Assembly: GCF_000685155.1 (NCBI RefSeq)
Contig: NZ_JMIY01000005.1
Location: 177,148-218,679, forward strand
Length of the DNA stretch: 41,532 nucleotides
DNA from: Candidatus Methanoperedens nitratireducens
GTDB lineage: Archaea; Halobacteriota; Methanosarcinia; Methanosarcinales; Methanoperedenaceae
Direction of reading: 5' to 3'
Of the stretch, positions 6,648-25,774 are shown in pieces. A program made the position numbers and the translations under genes. The notes beneath the pieces are model-generated. The model was not told the origin of the DNA and did no database searches. It saw only the letters and a program-made list of their open reading frames with translations. Position 1 is the stretch's first letter; every line of letters begins with the position of its first letter.

Positions 6648-7787
6648 CTACTTCTCTTTACTTAGCACTGCAGCTTTGTGTATTTTTTCATTCAGGTATG
6701 ATACTTCCTGGGCCTTTGCCATGTGTTCCATAGCTTCACGGATCGGTTTTATGATCTCCACAGGGATTTCTTTAGGTACCTGTACTGGTGCTTTCGCTGT
6801 CTCCTTGATCTCACCGCTCAGGAATGGACATGTGACTCCTGTGAGAACAGACATAACGCGGACGCTGCCGGTCAATGCCGGGTCTACCTTGGCTCCCCAT
6901 ATCACGCGTTTTGTATATGGAACCTTCTGCATTATCTGTTCTCCTGCTATGGCCACTTCATCAAGGGTCATGTCCTCACCCCCGACTATGTGTATCATAA
7001 CACCATATGCAGTCGATATATCGGTAATATCAAGAAGAGGGGTTGAGAGCGCCTGAGAGACCGATTTTTCTATGCGGTTCTCACCATTACCTTCACCAAT
7101 TCCGATGGCCGATATTCCCCCGCGTTCCATCACAGCACGAAGATCTGCATAATCAAGATTCACAAGGCTTGGCTGGGTTATGGTATCAGTTAGATTCTTA
7201 ACAAACGAACCCACAAGTGCATTTGCAACGGCCAGAGCCTCTTTTAGCGGAAGGTTGCCTGCTACTTCCCTGAGCTTTGAATTATCTATCACGATTATTG
7301 AATCGCAGTTCTCTGCAAGTTCCTTTATGGCATTCCGCGCCTTCTCACGTCTTATCATCTCAATGGTGAACGGTATGGTTACGCATGCAATGGTGAGCGC
7401 ACCTGCTTCTCTTCCAGCCTCTGCAAAAACTGGTATCGCGCCTGTACCTGATCCTCCTCCCAGTCCTGCCACAAGGAACATAAGGTTGCTGCCCTTCAGC
7501 TCTTCCCTGATCTCATCCAGGTTCTCTCTTGCCGCCTCAGCACCTCTCTCAGGGAATCCTCCGCAGCCGTGCCCTTTACACAGCTTTTCACCGAGTAATA
7601 TGATCTTATCTGCCCTTGTCATTGTACTAAGATGCGGTGCATCTGTATTGGCCGCGATTATTTTACCGCCGGCAAGTTTCTTTTCAGCTATCCACGTAGC
7701 GATATTGCAGCCCGCACCACCAAGACCAACAACGGTAACAGATGGACGTGCAGTCTTTACTTTCTCCAATAATTCTTCTCTAGTCAT
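6648..7787 (-). CDS. ftsZ: Cell division protein FtsZ
   Basis: A 379-residue tubulin-like GTPase that forms the cytokinetic ring. The N-terminal GLGGAGCN loop, the tubulin signature GGGSGTG, and the synergy-loop region NLDYADLRAV are all present. The C-terminal 40 residues are a variable tail (KAPVQVPKEIPVEIIKPI) that may serve as the linker to membrane anchors. The ATG at 7787 has GGAGG seven bases upstream. Archaea usually carry FtsZ1 and FtsZ2, and the sequence alone does not let me say which this is. It is transcribed alone. Confidence 0.95.
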   Translation of the reverse strand: MTREELLEKVKTARPSVTVVGLGGAGCNIATWIAEKKLAGGKIIAANTDAPHLSTMTRADKIILLGEKLCKGHGCGGFPERGAEAARENLDEIREELKGSNLMFLVAGLGGGSGTGAIPVFAEAGREAGALTIACVTIPFTIEMIRREKARNAIKELAENCDSIIVIDNSKLREVAGNLPLKEALAVANALVGSFVKNLTDTITQPSLVNLDYADLRAVMERGGISAIGIGEGNGENRIEKSVSQALSTPLLDITDISTAYGVMIHIVGGEDMTLDEVAIAGEQIMQKVPYTKRVIWGAKVDPALTGSVRVMSVLTGVTCPFLSGEIKETAKAPVQVPKEIPVEIIKPIREAMEHMAKAQEVSYLNEKIHKAAVLSKEK

Positions 7788-7880
7788 AATCAGCCTCCAG
7801 TATTAAGTTGCCTTGTTAGTATTTAAATTCTTTTATTTAATGATGATATACAGGTTCAAGTTACCAATCAGCAGGATAAT

Positions 7881-7893
7881 AAATTATATATTA
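7881..7893 (+). promoter_or_regulatory. TATA box for the DUF2111 gene
   Basis: An AAATTATATATTA sequence is centred about 26 bases before the ATG at 7913, the archaeal TATA-to-transcription-start distance. This predicts a leaderless or near-leaderless mRNA. Confidence 0.5.
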
Positions 7894-7912
7894 TAAGACG
7901 TAAAACATTAAC

Positions 7913-8326
7913 ATGAACATGGATTACACCAAAATACAGATCTCAGCAGATTCAGATGCCAGAGAGGTAGCTCCTTTTGCAATGGCAGTGCATGAACTTT
8001 TAGGGCTTCCGGTCACAATGAGAAGTCTCAATAAAAAGGGTGTCAGAATCGAGAAAGGAAAAATCCTTGACGATAACTATACAGGCCCTGTACTGGAGCA
8101 GGTACTAAAAGAGAACCAGATCATCCGTACAATCCCTACAAACGGCAGATATACAGGAATTCCTGTAGTTGTAGCCCCGATAAGGAATAAAGAGGGCTAT
8201 GGAATTGCCGCCATAGGTATAGTGGATGTGGTAGGTACCGTAGATTTGGGGCTTGTATTTAGTGATTACCCTGAGGTTGTAAATCAGGTGCAGGATTGCT
8301 TAAGAGCGCGCATGTCAGTACCTTGA
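7913..8326 (+). CDS. DUF2111 family protein
   Basis: A 137-residue soluble protein matching what I know of DUF2111, a family found mainly in methanogenic archaea and close relatives and without an assigned function. It has an N-terminal helix with AVHELLGLPVTMRS and a beta-rich second half (GIPVVVAPIRN, GYGIAAIGIVDVVGTVDLG). No catalytic motif stands out. The stop overlaps a TTG start for the following RimI-like acetyltransferase, so the two are translationally coupled. Confidence 0.75.
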   Translation: MNMDYTKIQISADSDAREVAPFAMAVHELLGLPVTMRSLNKKGVRIEKGKILDDNYTGPVLEQVLKENQIIRTIPTNGRYTGIPVVVAPIRNKEGYGIAAIGIVDVVGTVDLGLVFSDYPEVVNQVQDCLRARMSVP

Positions 8327-15820: not shown

Positions 15821-17485
15821 ATGAGAAGCGATAATATCAAGAGAGGACTTGAACGTGCCCCGCACAGGTCTTTATTAAAAGCAGTCGGGCTTACTGATGA
15901 AGAGATGAACCTTCCGTTCATTGGAGTGGTAAATTCATGGAATGAGATCATCCCAGGGCATATCCATCTTGATAAGCTTGCAGATGCAGTAAAAGCCGGA
16001 ATACGCATGGCAGGTGGTGTTCCATTTGAGTTCAACACTATCGGGATATGCGACGGCATAGCAATGGGACACACGGGCATGAAGAACTCGCTTCCGAGCA
16101 GGGAATTAATAGCAGACAGTATCGAACTCATGGTTGAGGCGCACCAGTTTGATGGTATGGTCATGATACCTACCTGTGATAAGATCGTACCCGGTCACCT
16201 GATGGCTGCAGGAAGGCTTGATATCCCGGCGATTGTGGTCACAGGAGGGCCTATGATGCCAGGCATAGTAGGGGATGAGCCGCGGGATGTGATCTCATTA
16301 TTCGAGGCCGTTGGAGCGAGAAGGAGCAATAAGCTCACAGATCAGGATCTGAAGAACCTTGAGGACTATGCATGCTGTGGAGCAGGTTCATGCGCCGGAC
16401 TCTTTACTGCCAATACAATGGCATGCGTGACAGAGGCACTTGGCATGAGCCTGCCCGGATGCGGTACAGCCCATGCTGTGGATGCCAGAAAGATAAGGAT
16501 AGCAAAGCAATCGGGTATGAAGATACTTGAGCTCGTGAAAAAAGAGATAAAACCAGGACGGATTGTTACTGAAGAGTCGTTTGATAATGCAATTCGCATA
16601 GATATGGCAATCGGAGGAAGCACGAATACTGCGCTTCATCTTCCCGCTATAGCGGCTGAATTCGGACTTGATCTTCCGCTCTTGAGGTTCGATGAGATAA
16701 GCAAAGAGACCCCGCACCTGATAAATCTAAGGCCGGGGGGAAGCAGATACCTTATCGATTTTGAGCGTGCAGGAGGCGTTCATGCTATAATGCAGCGGCT
16801 GCAGGAGAGGCTCAATCTTGATGTTATGACGGTAACAGGAAAAAGCCTTGGAGAGAATCTCAGGGAGTACATAATCATAAACCCCCGTACCAATCAAGAG
16901 ATTATAGCCACACCTGATTCACCGGTGCACGCAGAGGGAGGTATAGCTGTGCTGCGCGGAAGCCTGGCGCCAGACGGGTCGGTGATAAAACAGACGGCAG
17001 TTAGCCAGAAGATGCAGAGGTATTCCGGGCCTGCCCGTGTCTTTGACAGCGAGGAGCTTGCAATGAGGGCTATAATGGAAAATAAGATCAAATCTGGCGA
17101 CTGCATAATCATACGCTATGAGGGTCCAAAAGGAGGGCCAGGGATGCGCGAGATGCTCTCCCCGACTGCTGCTATAGCCGGCATGGGACTGATCGATTCA
17201 GTGGCGCTCATCACAGACGGTCGGTTCTCAGGCGGAACAAGGGGGCCATGCATAGGCCATGTATCCCCGGAAGCGGCCGAGGGAGGGCCTATAGCTCTTG
17301 TTCATGATGGCGATACCATTGAGATAGATATTCCCGCACGGGTATTGAGCCTGAAGGTCTCACAGGAAGAATTAGAGAAAAGAAGAAAGATGTGGAAAGC
17401 TCCTGCATCAAGAGTTACAAAGGGCTATCTTGCACGCTACCAGAAACAGGTAGGTTCGGGTGATAAGGGTGCAATTATTTTATAG
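15821..17485 (+). CDS. ilvD: Dihydroxy-acid dehydratase
   Basis: A 554-residue enzyme that dehydrates 2,3-dihydroxy acids to 2-keto acids in valine and isoleucine synthesis and needs an Fe-S cluster. Cysteines expected to bind the cluster are visible in [22 protein letters not shown] and [16 protein letters not shown]. The C-terminal [11 protein letters not shown] and [14 protein letters not shown] motifs are typical of IlvD/Edd. Full length. It appears to be transcribed alone, behind its own promoter. Confidence 0.95.
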
Positions 17486-20074: not shown

Positions 20075-22183
20075 TCACGGCGTGGTCAGCAGCTCAAGCA
20101 TCTTCCCTGTATCAGTGGTTGGAAGCTTGCAGCTATAATTCTGGCATACATACGCTGTAGCTCTTCCATCAGTGCTTGAGAGGTACCTGGTATATTCAAC
20201 TAAACGGATGATCTCTGGCAGTTCGATCTCTCCTGGACGGAAGACCACTATCTTATCTGGTATAAACTCCTGTCTTAAAGCTGCCAGCATTGCTTTTGTA
20301 TCATTAGCCTGTGAATCGCCTGTTATAACCACTTCACTTGCAGGCCCGATTGCAAAATCAAGCGCCACCATAAACTGGGTATATCCTGATGGCACCTGTT
20401 GAATACTGTGTGAAAATGCCTGTCCGATCTGCATCGCCATCATCTCTAATTCGGGATTGGCAGTCATTCGGCCCAGACGGAGCAGGTTCAGCATTGCTAC
20501 CGAGTTGCCTGATGGTAGAGCACCGTCATAGATCTGTTTTTTGCGGACAATGACTTCCTCGGCATCATCTGCGGTAAGGTAAAAACCCAGGTGCTCATTA
20601 TCCCAGAAGTGTGTGATCTGATCAGTGGTGAGGTCAAGCGCTGTTTGCAGGTAACGTACTTTAAACGTGGTCTCATAAAGCTCTATCAATCCCCAGATAA
20701 GGGAGGTATAGTCATCCAAAAAAGCAGGTACTGCAAGCTCACCATCCCTGTACCGATGATATAATCGTCCTCTTGAGTCATGCATGTTCTCAAGGATAAA
20801 ATCGGCTGCTCTCTGTGCAGCGTCAGCATACGCAGGCTCATTAAAGACCTGCGCACCCTTTGATAGGGCAGCGATCATAAATCCATTCCAGTCAACCAGG
20901 ATCTTATCATCCTTACCAGGATGAATGCGCCTCTCACGGGCAGTGAATAGTTTCAGCCTGGCATCATCCAGCAGCTTTTGGAGCTTATCCACCGGGACCT
21001 TAAGATCAGAGGCGATCTCAGAGAGAGATCCTGTCAGGTGCAGGATATTTTTCCCTGTTAATCTCCCCTCTTCCCTGAAATTCCCCTCCTCCTCAATATT
21101 AAATATTCTCTTTACCAGGTCGCTCTCTTCCCCCAGTACCGTTCTTATCTCGTTCTCTGTCCACACGTAGAACTTCCCCTCAACGCCTTCGCTATCGGCA
21201 TCTTCACCTGAATAAAATCCCCCTTCTGGAGATGTCATATCCCGCAGTACATAGGTAAATATCTCCCTGGCTGCTCTTCCATATTCTTCGTCTTTAGTAG
21301 CCTGGTAGGCCTCTATGTATGCCATTGCGATCAGTGCCTGGTCATAGAGCATTTTTTCAAAATGTGGCACAAGCCATTTTGAATCAGTAGAATAGCGGTG
21401 AAAACCAAAGCCGATATGGTCATAGATGCCACCCATACGCATACCTGTAAGTGTCCGCTCCACCATCCGAAGGGCTATTATATCTCTTGTACGTCTCCAG
21501 TAACGGAGAAGGAACTGGAGGTTATGGGGTGTCGGGAACTTTGGAGCATCGTCAAAGCCGCCATGCTGCTCATCAAACATTGTCAAAAGCTGCTCATAAG
21601 CCATATTGAATACATCTTTATCAAGCTCCTCTCCAGGCTTGCCTCTGTATACTTCCCTGATTGATGAAGTGACCTTCATGGCCGTTTTTTCTACCTCATC
21701 CCTGTTCTTCTCCCAGAGATCTTTGATCCTCGGTATCAGTTCCAGCATCCCGGTTCTTCCAAATATGCTCTCCTTTGGGATGTATGTTGCAGCAAAAAAG
21801 GGCTTCTTATCAGGGGTAAGTATTATGTTAAGAGGCCATCCCCCGCTGCCGATCAATGCCTGACAGGCTCTCATATAGGTACTATCTATATCCGGCCTCT
21901 CCTCACGATCGACCTTTATGGATACAAATGCATCATTTATCAGCCTTGCCACTTCTTCATCATCATAGGATTCCCTCTCCATAACATGGCACCAGTGGCA
22001 GGTAGAATATCCGATGGATAGAAAAATCGGTTTATCCTCTTTCTTTGCCTTCTCAAATGCCTCCTGTCCCCATGGATACCAGTCCACGGGATTATATGCA
22101 TGCTGAAGGAGATACGGATTTTTTTCATATATTAAACGGTTCGGTTTTCTTTCCACTTCAGGTTGTTCGGTTTTATATATCAT
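20075..22183 (-). CDS. YyaL/spermatogenesis-associated-protein-20-like protein (DUF255)
   Basis: A 702-residue protein. The N-terminal thioredoxin-like DUF255 domain has [16 protein letters not shown] with C62 and C65 in a CxxC arrangement. The rest is an (alpha/alpha) barrel of the six-hairpin glycosidase type. The family is widespread and its reaction is uncertain. The domain mix suggests a redox or sugar-related role. The ATG at 22183 has a GAGG six bases upstream, and the stop of the crotonase gene is seven bases away, so it is the last gene of the crotonase/hydrolase operon. Confidence 0.85.
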
Positions 22184-22190
22184 TTAATCC

Positions 22191-22973
22191 TCACTCTCCT
22201 TTAAACCGGGGAGTTCTCTTCTCAATAAAGGCGTTCATACCTTCTATATGATCCTGGGAGGCAAAGCACTCGGAGAAGTAATTAATCTCCATCTCAAGCC
22301 CTCTACCTATATCCTGGTTTTTATTTATCAGATCTTTAGCCATTTTGATGGTTATCGGGCTTTTTTGTGCCAGAACCTGCGCCATTTTCTCAGCATTATC
22401 CATCAGTTCTTCATCCTTTACAACCATGTTGACAAGCCCGATAGAGAGAGCCTCTTTTGCACCTACAGTCCTGCCGGTCAGGATCATTTCCTTTGTTTTT
22501 CCTATGCCCACAAGTCTTGTAAGCCTCTGAGTGCCTCCAAAACCAGGAATAATACCGATTTTCACTTCAGGCTGGCCAATTCTTGCATTCTCTCCTGATA
22601 TACGGATATCGCAGGCAAGGGCCATTTCACATCCACCTCCCAGGACATAACCGCTGACTGCCGCAATTGTAGGCTTTTCCATATTCTCTATCTGGTTGAA
22701 GATCCTGTGACCGAGCCTGGACAAGGCCTCTGCCCCATTGGGATCTTTGTCTTTCAGTACTCTAATATCAACTCCTGCACTGAAGGTTTTACCTCCTGTT
22801 ATGATTATAGCTCTTATCTGTTTATCCTTCTCAAGATCAGTAAGTGAATCTCCAAGCTCCTTTAGTGTTTTTGCATCCAGTATATTCATAACCTCAGGCC
22901 GGTTCAAAATAATAGTTCCAATCTCTTTTTTTCTCTCTGTCACTATATGTTCATGCTCATTTCCTGCACTCAT
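22191..22973 (-). CDS. Enoyl-CoA hydratase/isomerase (crotonase family)
   Basis: A 260-residue crotonase. The oxyanion-hole segments (KTFSAGVDIRVL and VSGYVLGGGCEMALACD) are present. Both glutamates used by hydratases appear, in GQPEVKIGIIPG and in GKTKEMILTG. It can therefore be a true enoyl-CoA hydratase, for example acting on crotonyl-CoA, though family members vary widely. The downstream partner in the same run is the DUF255 protein. Upstream is a PhaC-like hydrolase, which suggests acyl-CoA or polyhydroxyalkanoate-related metabolism. Confidence 0.85.
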   Translation of the reverse strand: MSAGNEHEHIVTERKKEIGTIILNRPEVMNILDAKTLKELGDSLTDLEKDKQIRAIIITGGKTFSAGVDIRVLKDKDPNGAEALSRLGHRIFNQIENMEKPTIAAVSGYVLGGGCEMALACDIRISGENARIGQPEVKIGIIPGFGGTQRLTRLVGIGKTKEMILTGRTVGAKEALSIGLVNMVVKDEELMDNAEKMAQVLAQKSPITIKMAKDLINKNQDIGRGLEMEINYFSECFASQDHIEGMNAFIEKRTPRFKGE

Positions 22974-22994: not shown

Positions 22995-24152
22995 TTACCC
23001 TGCTGAATGCGCCTTTATCCATTCAATGATCTTTGGCCAGTTCTCTGCGAGAGGCACCCTGGCCATAAAAAGCCCGATGTGGCCTCCGTTAGCTATATCC
23101 TTTACAATCTCGCTCTTCTCAGTTCCGAGGCGTTCTTCAGCATTGAATACCTGTTCTTTCGGAGTTAATTCGTCTCTCTCCCCTGCTAATAGATACACAG
23201 GACACTTTATATCACCCAGGCTCAACCTCTTCCCGAGTCCGACAAACTCACCCTTAAAAAACCTGTTCTCCTTGAAGAGCTCTTTGACCACCTGGAGGTA
23301 CCACTTGCCCGGAAGGTCAATGGTGTGCTCATACCACCTCTCAAAGGTTTCAAACATCTTGACACATGGTGGTTTATTGATGTCTATATAGAGGCTCACA
23401 TACTTTTTTAAGTATTGTACCTCAGGGTGAATGCTTTTATAGCCAGCAAGCACAAGATCACCTCTCATGATCCCCCCTCCCATGGCTACAAGTCCATCAA
23501 AGAACTCCATGGGATATTTGTGCGCATAATCCTTAATTTTGTTCTCTCCAGTATCCGTATCTATAGGAGCCCCCACCACAGTAAGTGTATTCACCTTTTT
23601 CGGGAACCTTGCAGCGTACATGGCAATAAGCCATCCGCTCTGGCTCATGCCGACGAGATTTACCTGACCGCCTAATTCATCAACACAGATATCCAATTCA
23701 CTCAGATAGTTATCTATATCGTAGTGTTTCGTCTCCTCGGTTGCACTCTTCCAGTCTATAGAACATACTTTTTTAATTCCGTTCTTCAGGAGTGTTTCAA
23801 CAAGGCTCTGTCCAGGGGCGAAGTCGACTATCGTTGAGATATGACCGGAATAGGGAGGCACTATGAGTATGTTGATACCATCTTCCCCCTTCGAAAAATC
23901 CCTCAATTTCAACGTGTTCAGATCTAACTTTACTATATTATCCGTAATCCATGATGGCCTCTCAATCTGTACTCTTTCAATTGTTTCTAAAAATTTAAGG
24001 TTATCACTTAAAGTTATTCCGTTCTTCCTCACAGTTTCTATAATTTTATCTATATACTCTATATTAAATGCAGATGGAAAAAGAAACGGATTCCTTACCT
24101 CAGAGGATCTTAATAACTCCCTGGCTTCCTTTCTTTCGCTTGTATTGATCAT
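22995..24152 (-). CDS. PhaC-like alpha/beta hydrolase with Ser nucleophile
   Basis: A 385-residue alpha/beta-hydrolase. The nucleophile region GMSQSG (168-173) aligns with the GxCxGG box of polyhydroxyalkanoate synthases but has Ser170 in place of the catalytic Cys. Asp327 (AGERDELTP) and His358 (GGHIGLF) complete the triad, and the last motif is typical of PhaC. The family is otherwise used to make or break polyhydroxyalkanoates. The Cys-to-Ser change favours hydrolysis, but that is inference. The neighbours are a crotonase and a rubredoxin. Confidence 0.7.
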   Translation of the reverse strand: MINTSERKEARELLRSSEVRNPFLFPSAFNIEYIDKIIETVRKNGITLSDNLKFLETIERVQIERPSWITDNIVKLDLNTLKLRDFSKGEDGINILIVPPYSGHISTIVDFAPGQSLVETLLKNGIKKVCSIDWKSATEETKHYDIDNYLSELDICVDELGGQVNLVGMSQSGWLIAMYAARFPKKVNTLTVVGAPIDTDTGENKIKDYAHKYPMEFFDGLVAMGGGIMRGDLVLAGYKSIHPEVQYLKKYVSLYIDINKPPCVKMFETFERWYEHTIDLPGKWYLQVVKELFKENRFFKGEFVGLGKRLSLGDIKCPVYLLAGERDELTPKEQVFNAEERLGTEKSEIVKDIANGGHIGLFMARVPLAENWPKIIEWIKAHSAG

Positions 24153-24174: not shown

Positions 24175-24318
24175 TCACTCTATTTCTACAAATATATCCC
24201 TTCCACATATACCGCACGAAACACATACCCAGTCCTCTGGTAGAGGTTTAATTTTTTTGGGCTTCTCTTTTTCTGTGTCGTATACAAAATTACAGACCGT
24301 ACATTGATACTTTGTCAT
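24175..24318 (-). CDS. Rubredoxin
   Basis: A 47-residue protein, MTKYQCTVCNFVYD at the start and PEDWVCVSCG in the second half. The two CxxC knuckles (C6-x2-C9 and C32-x2-C35) bind a single iron. An extra Cys (CGICGRDIF) follows. The length is typical. It acts as a small electron carrier. It lies 28 bases after the stop of the lipoamide-dehydrogenase-type gene and 22 bases before the PhaC-like gene, all on one strand, and could serve the flavoenzyme. GAGGAG precedes the ATG. Confidence 0.88.
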   Translation of the reverse strand: MTKYQCTVCNFVYDTEKEKPKKIKPLPEDWVCVSCGICGRDIFVEIE

Positions 24319-24346: not shown

Positions 24347-25774
24347 TTAAGTATATCTCAATCTCTCAAGAACATGATGATAGTGTGCAGGCGGCATAAG
24401 TGCGCTGAATGCCCTCTGCACAACCTCGCTCAGGGCAGGGTGGATGTGCATCCCCTCTCTGATTGGATTTGCGCTCTGCTGTGGAGTGTACATCAGGTTT
24501 ACGACCTCCTGAATAAGGATTGAAGCATAGGGACCGATTATATGCGCGCCCAGGATCTTATTTGTGCCCCTTTCCACGATCACCTTTACAAAATCGTCTT
24601 TCGCTTCCATTGACTGTCCCCTGGCGGTATCCTGGTACCTGTAGAAGCCTATTAGCACATTCTTTTCTCCATATTTTTCAACTGCCTCCTTCTCTCCCAT
24701 TCCCACACCTGCTATCTCAGGATGCGAATAAACCGCATGTGGGACGGCATGGTAATTAGCCTTGATCTTTTTATTCTGAAATGCATTGTAATAAACAGTA
24801 CGGGCCTCAAAGTTTGCCACATGCGTGAAAAGGTATTTTCCATCCGCATCTCCAAAAGCCCAGACATTCGGCTGTGATGTCTCAAAGTATTCATTTACAG
24901 CAATCCATCCTTTCCTGTCTGTTTCTATCCCGCCTCTCTCAGGATGCAGTATATCGCTGTTCGAAGCCCTCCCTGTGGCAACAAGGATCTCATCAACAGT
25001 TAGATCCATCTTTTTACCGCTACTCCTGTCCTGTGCAATGACTTTTTTCTTTCCATCGCCAGAGTCCTGCACCTCAACAACCTCATGATTTGTGATAATA
25101 TCCATATGCTCGGACATCTCTCTCTTTGCCAGTTCTGAGATCTCTGGTTCCTCATCAGGCAGGAACCTGGGATTTCGCCCGATTATGGTCACCTTTGAGC
25201 CCATGGTTGAGAAGAAATGTCCGTACTCTGCTGCAATGAATCCGCCTCCCATAATAGCCATGCTCTCTGGAAGCTCGGTCATTCTCAATAGTGTATCGCT
25301 TGTTTGATAACCCACATCACTCAGCCCCTTTACAGGCGGTATCATGGGCTTTGAACCAGCTCCGAGGAGTATCAATTTTGAGGTGATAGTCTCATCACCT
25401 ACCTTCATCGTGTAGGGAGCAATGAACTCTGCAATATCCTGATAATAATCTACGTTCGGACTGCTTTCCAGCCCCTTGCTTATCTTATTTATCTCTTCAG
25501 AGATTTTGCTCCTCATTCTTTCCATTATCCACTTGAAATCAATGCTCTTTAATTCCACATCAATGCCAAACTTCTCTACATTTTCTATTAACCTCACCAG
25601 GTCTGCAGGATAGATGAGCAATTTAGAGGGTATGCATGCCCTTGTAAGGCATATACCTCCAGGCTCATCTTTATCAATAACCGCGATCTTTGCGTTCGGA
25701 TTGCTTTCCAGTACCGGTCCAACAAAGTTCATTGCAGAGCCAGTCCCTACTATGATCATATCGTACTTTTTCAT
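24347..25774 (-). CDS. Lipoamide-dehydrogenase/mercuric-reductase-type flavoprotein disulfide reductase
   Basis: A 475-residue protein with an N-terminal FAD-binding fold, the redox-active disulfide CLTRACIPSK (CxxxxC), a second nucleotide-binding GGGFIAAEYG, the FAD motif VWAFGDADG, and the C-terminal His-Glu pair in HIHPALSEVV. This is the class I disulfide reductase layout. No lipoyl-enzyme genes are near, so a role as a true dihydrolipoamide dehydrogenase is not supported by context. A thiol reductase or an NAD(P)H-linked electron donor to the adjacent rubredoxin is possible. Confidence 0.85.
   Translation of the reverse strand: MKKYDMIIVGTGSAMNFVGPVLESNPNAKIAVIDKDEPGGICLTRACIPSKLLIYPADLVRLIENVEKFGIDVELKSIDFKWIMERMRSKISEEINKISKGLESSPNVDYYQDIAEFIAPYTMKVGDETITSKLILLGAGSKPMIPPVKGLSDVGYQTSDTLLRMTELPESMAIMGGGFIAAEYGHFFSTMGSKVTIIGRNPRFLPDEEPEISELAKREMSEHMDIITNHEVVEVQDSGDGKKKVIAQDRSSGKKMDLTVDEILVATGRASNSDILHPERGGIETDRKGWIAVNEYFETSQPNVWAFGDADGKYLFTHVANFEARTVYYNAFQNKKIKANYHAVPHAVYSHPEIAGVGMGEKEAVEKYGEKNVLIGFYRYQDTARGQSMEAKDDFVKVIVERGTNKILGAHIIGPYASILIQEVVNLMYTPQQSANPIREGMHIHPALSEVVQRAFSALMPPAHYHHVLERLRYT

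Follow-up and report, generated by a model that had tools for sequence, protein, structure and literature searches.

The window, a 41,532-nucleotide stretch of the Candidatus Methanoperedens nitratireducens genome, contains five minus-strand genes in a tight row, with gaps of 28, 22, 21 and 7 bp between them. The middle gene encodes an alpha/beta-hydrolase with Ser at the position of the catalytic Cys of PhaC, and we refer to its product as the Ser enzyme. From upstream to downstream, the features of the row are:

24347..25774, minus strand: dihydrolipoyl-dehydrogenase-type flavoprotein (NF004947, 770 bits, over the cut-off of 592), 28 bp upstream of the rubredoxin gene
24175..24318, minus strand: rubredoxin of 47 aa, carrying an additional Cys behind its second CxxC(G) knuckle; 22 bp separate its gene from that of the Ser enzyme downstream
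22995..24152, minus strand: Ser enzyme, a 385-aa alpha/beta-hydrolase of the PhaC/PhaZ/DUF3141 superfamily (from the ORF, profiles, tree and structure model)
23634..23651, minus strand: nucleophile elbow of the Ser enzyme, codons GGC ATG AGC CAG AGC GGA, read as GMSQSG, residues 168-173
22191..22973, minus strand: crotonase / enoyl-CoA hydratase family protein (PF00378), encoded 21 bp after the Ser enzyme gene
20075..22183, minus strand: 702-aa protein with a DsbH-like thioredoxin domain (PF03190) at its N terminus; its gene follows the crotonase gene after 7 bp and is the last of the row

The ORF of the Ser enzyme lies on the minus strand, and frame 1 of the plus strand over 22995-24152 is full of stops. 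The initial annotation had pointed to GMSQSG, Asp327 and GGHIGLF (His358); all three are present in the translated ORF under the same numbering, with Ser170 in GMSQSG as the nucleophile. In alignments, Ser170, Asp327 and His358 fall on the Cys, Asp and His positions of PhaC. Ser170 and Ser172 are both encoded by AGC, where the Cys relatives have TGC or TGT and GGC or GGT, respectively. From the codons of most relatives, both C170S (TGC to AGC) and G172S (GGC to AGC) are single-base steps. A chance ORF on the wrong strand was rejected on the basis of a conserved orthologue with a dN/dS of 0.147, and a sequencing error at the Cys codon was rejected because the AGC/AGC pair is common to two genomes.

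The two neighbors named in the initial annotation are genuine. The crotonase is intact (PF00378, E 9.1e-71), and the rubredoxin matches PF00301 with 28.0 bits, over the gathering score of 23, and has the knuckles CTVC and CVSCG. In Pfam searches, the neighbors in the row matched flavoprotein, rubredoxin, crotonase and DsbH families, and there was no PhaE beside the Ser enzyme.

Family assignment and structure model

The best Pfam match of the Ser enzyme is DUF3141 (PF11339; E 8e-15, 54.9 bits, over the gathering score of 29.7), and it also matches PHB_depo_C (PF06850; E 3e-11, 43.6 bits, over the gathering score of 27) and Abhydrolase_1 (E 3.6e-10). Among the NCBIfam profiles, class III PhaC (TIGR01836) gave 126.9 bits, below its cut-off of 365.3; PhaZ (TIGR01849) gave 77.5 bits, below 300.75; class I PhaC gave 70.7 bits; and the lipase-box nPHAscl depolymerase profile (NF050089) gave 21.7 bits, below 300. 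PHA synthases came first (E 1.5e-10) when solved structures were searched with the sequence. The Pfam matches over gathering scores, together with the PhaC-type fold of the structure model, place the Ser enzyme in the PhaC/PhaZ/DUF3141 superfamily.

The structure model, made from 11 input sequences, had a mean pLDDT of 80 and a pTM of 0.79, with residues 1-63 below 50. Its best solved matches are (class I) PHA synthases, with VIA-align Z scores of 30.9-35.7 over 293-354 residues; next are gastric and lysosomal acid lipases (Z 25-26), and then a wide field around 21 that includes a Bacillus PhaZ. Ser170 lies between a strand (164-169) and a helix (171-182), as expected for a nucleophile elbow. 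The model supports the fold and not membership in a particular family, because four of its 11 inputs were themselves PhaC (two, class I) or PhaZ (two) sequences. We also considered an ordinary Ser hydrolase unrelated to PhaC. This was rejected because such profiles gave 15-19 bits, compared with 50-127 bits for the PhaC and PhaZ profiles, and because the top 15 Foldseek rows are all PhaC (the rows of the tree described below included no ordinary Ser hydrolases).

We built an unrooted tree of 39 rows (IQ-TREE, LG+C20), in which III_L036 was left out, L025 was cut to 260 residues and L058, identical to L057, was not used. A branch with support 100/98 separates class I and class III PhaC on one side from PhaZ, DUF3141 and the family of the Ser enzyme (99/97) on the other. 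The root was not inferred, so that "closer to PhaZ" is an unrooted reading only. Within the family, the two Ser proteins form a pair (100/99) nested in a Methanoperedens clade that also contains Cys copies (100/99), and four bacterial Cys members lie outside this clade. Our survey of superfamily ORFs at the loci examined covered 64 sequences: 61 have Cys, one does not contain the column, and two have Ser, namely the window gene and its orthologue in Mnv1. The nesting of the Ser pair among Cys relatives and the presence of Cys in 61 of the 63 readable ORFs indicate that Ser is the derived state. The natural Cys-to-Ser replacement proposed initially is thus upheld by the survey, and Cys is also present in all four bacterial family members that could be read.

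The description of the protein as PhaC-like holds at the level of the PhaC/PhaZ superfamily, but the Ser enzyme is not a class III PhaC that has lost its Cys. It shares with class III PhaC (TIGR01836) the alpha/beta-hydrolase superfamily, a G-x-Nu-x-x-G elbow and the Asp and His positions, but its 127 bits fall short of the cut-off of 365, and it has a Ser nucleophile, sits across the 100/98 branch and has no PhaE among its row neighbors (Pfam). Its oxyanion-side loop is of the form P-x-x-GH, in contrast to the [NM][RK]xx-ILDL type in most PhaC rows. A polymerase as the starting point, also suggested initially, was not supported: the direct ancestor is a Cys enzyme of an uncharacterized family.

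The Ser enzyme resembles the R. eutropha-type PhaZ (TIGR01849, PF06850; nPHAscl without lipase box) in its PHB_depo_C match, its side of the unrooted tree and a common P-x-S-G-H loop (PPYSGH in the Ser enzyme, AP[ML]SGH in the PhaZ rows), but all four PhaZ rows have Cys in a CQP box in contrast to Ser170 in GMSQSG. DUF3141 (PF11339) has the box GNCQAGW, with a Trp after the elbow as in the Ser enzyme; it differs in its Cys nucleophile and in its length, which is 595-796 aa in the three rows used. The intracellular PhaZ of Bacillus thuringiensis (nPHAscl with lipase box, PDB 8ynv) is a Ser alpha/beta hydrolase with PHB as its substrate. It belongs to another lineage, since the Ser enzyme reached 21.7 bits against the NF050089 cut-off of 300, and its fold match (Z 21.0) is no better than that of many other hydrolases. 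The Cys sisters of the Ser enzyme belong to the same family and have the same motif layout, but their elbow is GMCQGG or GLCQGG with Cys. They have been annotated as alpha/beta fold hydrolase, PHB de-polymerase domain protein or poly(3-hydroxyalkanoate) synthetase.

Relatives and their gene neighborhoods

The genome of the window (G000) encodes a Cys paralogue (GMCQGG; G000:C1:111294-112451) that is 68% identical to the Ser enzyme. A check for further Cys-type PhaC in this genome, suggested with the initial annotation, yielded four Cys-type PhaC-like genes (L008, L009, L010 and L011; GVCQGG in three and GYCTGG in one) in addition to this close paralogue. Two of the four adjoin ORFs that we read as PhaE-like, thiolase and reductase, labels given by reading alone.

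Among 31 genomes of the genus, the close family is present in eight, at 11 loci (E ≤ 1e-30), some of which are only fragments. A Ser orthologue with GMSQSG and AGC/AGC codons, 79-81% identical, occurs in G009 alongside a Cys copy; this ORF and its flanks match those of the Mnv1 contig ('Ca. Methanoperedens nitroreducens'). There are six Cys copies in the genus (one each in G009, G013 and G019, two in G021 and the second copy in G000). The Ser enzyme is 64-69% identical to the Cys copies of the genus and 48% identical to the member on Burkholderia vietnamiensis pBVIE02. The remaining loci are incomplete. In G024 the neighborhood is ~93% identical in DNA, and the gene is cut by the ends of two contigs, which leaves out the nucleophile region; the N-terminal part has the Ser-type PPYSGH. 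The copy in G014 (L092:452-979, G014:C30) is a remnant: a frameshifting deletion took out approximately residues 158-177 and with them the nucleophile, and the remainder is truncated. Directly upstream of it lies a rubredoxin ORF. At a contig edge in G027, only an N-terminal fragment is present.

In a draw of 246 genomes from the phylum, the family profile gave more than 140 bits in no genome except that of the window, and scans of viral contigs with the family and with the PhaC of the window's genome gave no confirmed match. Named relatives are Mnv1 (two loci), a Methanoperedens MAG, a Methanoperedenaceae MAG, a MAG labelled Methanosarcina (small contig) and Rhodoblastus. The bacterial members are those of B. 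vietnamiensis pBVIE02 and Paraburkholderia aromaticivorans pBN2 (identical to each other), B. cenocepacia, Microvirga and Rhodoblastus, all with GLCQGG or GMCQGG at the elbow. In the MAG labelled Methanosarcina, the Cys member and a DNA polymerase II small subunit behind it form one reading frame (L025:39-2759, a 906-aa ORF), which is either a real fusion or a chimeric contig. The plasmid members (L057 and L058) lie in an island whose gene order is shared between B. vietnamiensis G4 and P. aromaticivorans BN5; it has genes for LemA, FtsH, YHS proteins, a metal P-type ATPase, a DUF3141 protein and methionine adenosyltransferase.

The gene order of the window is partly kept at the Ser locus of G009 and at the G024 locus. 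In G009/Mnv1 the rubredoxin gene keeps its place immediately before the Ser gene; that for the flavoprotein lies ~1.6 kb downstream, and a different contig holds the best match to the crotonase. G024 keeps the order of the window on either side of the gap, with flavoprotein and rubredoxin on one contig and crotonase on the other.

A related rubredoxin was found within 7 kb at nine of 10 family loci, compared with 0.16 expected (some distances are rounded); the 10 loci include the G024 fragment and the G014 remnant, and of the 11 family loci the G027 fragment was left out. The probability computed for this linkage is overstated, because the loci have a common origin and because the rubredoxin profile was itself made from seven rubredoxins already near family genes. 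Only the neighbors at G021:C39 and G024:C16 are outside it, the latter being an orthologue of the window's rubredoxin. Near the Cys copies, the distances are ~40 bp (G021:C27), 230 bp (G013), 2.1 kb (G009:C7 and G021:C39) and 6.3 kb (G000:C1). No rubredoxin was found near the G019 copy or near the four bacterial members, and on G024:C77 there is a top-tier rubredoxin with no family gene in the 18 kb around it.

The rubredoxins form a subtype, with the extra Cys after the second knuckle in six of seven aligned copies, at both Ser and Cys loci (copies: window 24175-24318, minus strand, and loci L024, L091, L092, L022, L021, L020 and L007). Elsewhere in the genus, at L076 (G030:C59), a flavoprotein homologue lies near a rubredoxin-like stretch within a longer open frame (~2649-2810), which hints at a flavoprotein-rubredoxin pairing there as well.

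An NDP-forming acyl-CoA ligase gene directly follows four of the six Cys copies and is ~6.8 kb away in G019; none was found in the 18 kb around G021:C27. Beside the Cys paralogue, the ligase is one 681-aa ORF in Mnv1 and two ORFs in the window's genome (L007:6006-6710 and 6864-8288, minus strand), the result of either a broken gene or an assembly error. The adjoining ligase suggests that the Cys sister is involved in acyl-CoA chemistry. A P-type ATPase (PF00122), which we take to be of the heavy-metal type, flanks four of the six Methanoperedens Cys copies. The L007 locus also contains a 155-aa ORF consisting largely of GVSIGVSTG-type repeats (16994-17461, minus strand).

Constraint and residues changed with the nucleophile

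Between the Ser genes of the window and G009, dS is 0.83, dN is 0.122 and dN/dS is 0.147. The corresponding dN/dS values were 0.11-0.17 for four Cys-Cys pairs and 0.15-0.18 for two Ser-Cys pairs. The Ser gene is under purifying selection, and Ser is kept in two species.

We compared the Ser proteins with 63 alignment columns that are unchanged in the Cys members compared and filled in no fewer than six archaeal and three bacterial rows. Four of these columns (102, 170, 172 and 364) are changed in both Ser proteins. A102S is in the oxyanion-side loop, C170S and G172S are in the elbow, and G364A follows the catalytic His. These are the only departures of the window protein from family-invariant columns, and all four are in active-site loops. 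With A102S the loop becomes PPYSGH, similar to the AP[ML]SGH found in the PhaZ rows. Three more of the columns are changed in the G009 protein: T330A and F362V fall in motif windows, V157I does not. Altogether, six of the seven columns changed in either Ser protein are in motif windows, with a hypergeometric P of 0.001 that is only a guide because the motif windows were set after the changed columns had been seen.

The same comparison was made for the Cys members by leaving out one at a time. The six full Cys copies of the genus had 0-2 departures each and the two Burkholderia rows had 1-2, always outside the motif windows. For the distant Rhodoblastus row the count was 19, with three in motif windows, so the Ser forms are not alone in showing changes of this kind. 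Overall, the Cys-to-Ser replacement is real, derived and conserved, in a small family of the PhaC/PhaZ type.

Proposed function of the Ser enzyme

Cys is the nucleophile of PHA synthases and of R. eutropha-type depolymerases. The Ser protein is probably an active hydrolase. Our more specific reading, which we hold at even strength for and against, is that it is an active Ser hydrolase of hydroxyacyl (thio)esters that evolved from a Cys-type PhaC/PhaZ-like enzyme; catalytic activity, hydrolysis as the reaction and a hydroxyacyl (thio)ester as the substrate are each what we infer. The Ser form would have arisen by duplication of a PhaC/PhaZ superfamily enzyme with a Cys nucleophile. His358 and Asp327 would activate Ser170 for attack on an ester or thioester of a hydroxyacyl group, with a PHA chain or oligomer or a hydroxyacyl-CoA as candidate substrates. 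Water would then release the free hydroxy acid, and the acyl group would not be passed to another hydroxyl or to CoA.

Several features fit this proposal. Ser with the kept Asp and His is consistent with an oxyester intermediate that water can resolve, which points to a hydrolase, and the crotonase in the row makes hydroxyacyl or enoyl compounds plausible substrates. In the DED catalogue, PHA depolymerases have a catalytic Ser except for the intracellular 'no lipase box' family, which has Cys, and most have a hydrophobic residue at x1 of the elbow (PMC2666664); x1 is Met in the Ser enzyme, and we count it in favor of a hydrolase for this reason. Against the hydrolase reading, Ser172 replaces the Gly two residues after the nucleophile, so that the elbow is not a textbook GxSxG and catalysis could be hindered, and the change of Gly364 to Ala lies near the catalytic His. 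There are only two full Ser sequences, the third candidate (G024) being without its nucleophile region at the contig ends.

It seems unlikely, although worth weighing, that the protein is a Ser hydrolase with a non-PHA substrate, such as a lipid, an acyl-thiol or a repair substrate, in a redox-stress row. Most of its neighbors are redox proteins, a P-type ATPase is beside four of the six Methanoperedens Cys copies, and the Burkholderia and Paraburkholderia relatives are in the plasmid island with FtsH, the metal P-type ATPase and DUF3141, where the stretch seen has no annotated PHA synthesis genes. However, the strongest profiles are PhaC, PhaZ and DUF3141, and two acyl-CoA enzymes are close by, the crotonase next to the Ser enzyme and the acyl-CoA ligase after four of the six Cys copies.

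Replacement of Cys by Ser abolishes or strongly lowers activity in many engineered Cys enzymes. The Ser enzyme could accordingly be a pseudoenzyme that has lost catalysis and acts by binding or regulating PHA granules, the Cys paralogue or the rubredoxin system, and the second elbow Ser and G364A are unusual enough to be in keeping with this. In Chromobacterium PhaC, an account of alanine mutants reports that Cys, His and Asp are all essential, with Cys taking the acyl group from acyl-CoA (PMC5509742). Yet Asp327 and His358 are kept, the replacement is another nucleophile that persists between two species at a dS of 0.83 and a dN/dS of 0.147, and the changes cluster at the active site, as expected for retuning and not for decay. 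We therefore regard loss of catalysis as quite improbable.

Alpha/beta hydrolases include acyltransferases with Ser nucleophiles, and the best solved structural matches are PHA synthases, but it is very doubtful that the Ser enzyme is still an acyltransferase or polymerase, carrying the growing chain via an oxyester to make PHA or transferring hydroxyacyl groups, given its place outside the PhaC clade (TIGR01836, 127 bits compared with 365), the absence of PhaE family matches among the adjacent genes of the row and the four Cys PhaC-like genes already in the genome, two of them beside PhaE-like, thiolase and reductase genes (by reading).

The hydrolase reading can be extended to the redox setting of the row, in a conjecture that we put forward with little confidence. 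In one Methanoperedens lineage, a duplicated Cys enzyme that cooperates with an acyl-CoA ligase in acyl transfer to or from CoA might have been recast, within the row of flavoprotein, rubredoxin and DsbH-like genes, as an oxidation-proof Ser hydrolase that releases storage hydroxy acids when the thiol form is oxidized or inhibited; the linkage to rubredoxin might then reflect a Cys sister that is controlled by, or protected from, oxidation.

PhaC and PhaE are described as widespread in Methanoperedens, in a paper whose main text does not contain 'depolymer' or 'PhaZ' (PMC8561730), and a model of Methanoperedens names PhaB and PhaCE (PMC13079737). We found no natural Ser form of a PhaC/PhaZ-type enzyme in the open-licence literature. 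PhaZ of the TIGR01849 type, the one depolymerase type covered by this search, was over the cut-off in none of the 31 genomes of the genus (among 14 named control genomes it was over the cut-off in one, Caulobacter), so part of PHA recovery in the genus may lack an assigned enzyme. Because the close family is in only eight of the 31 genomes, it cannot be the general answer to PHA recovery. The choice between making, thiolysing and hydrolysing a polyester has usually been studied with engineered mutants. The window's genome has a matched natural pair, 68% identical, one with Cys and one with Ser, and with this pair the question of whether the nucleophile decides between transfer and hydrolysis is directly testable. 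The Ser enzyme may also bear on how Methanoperedens regains its storage carbon.
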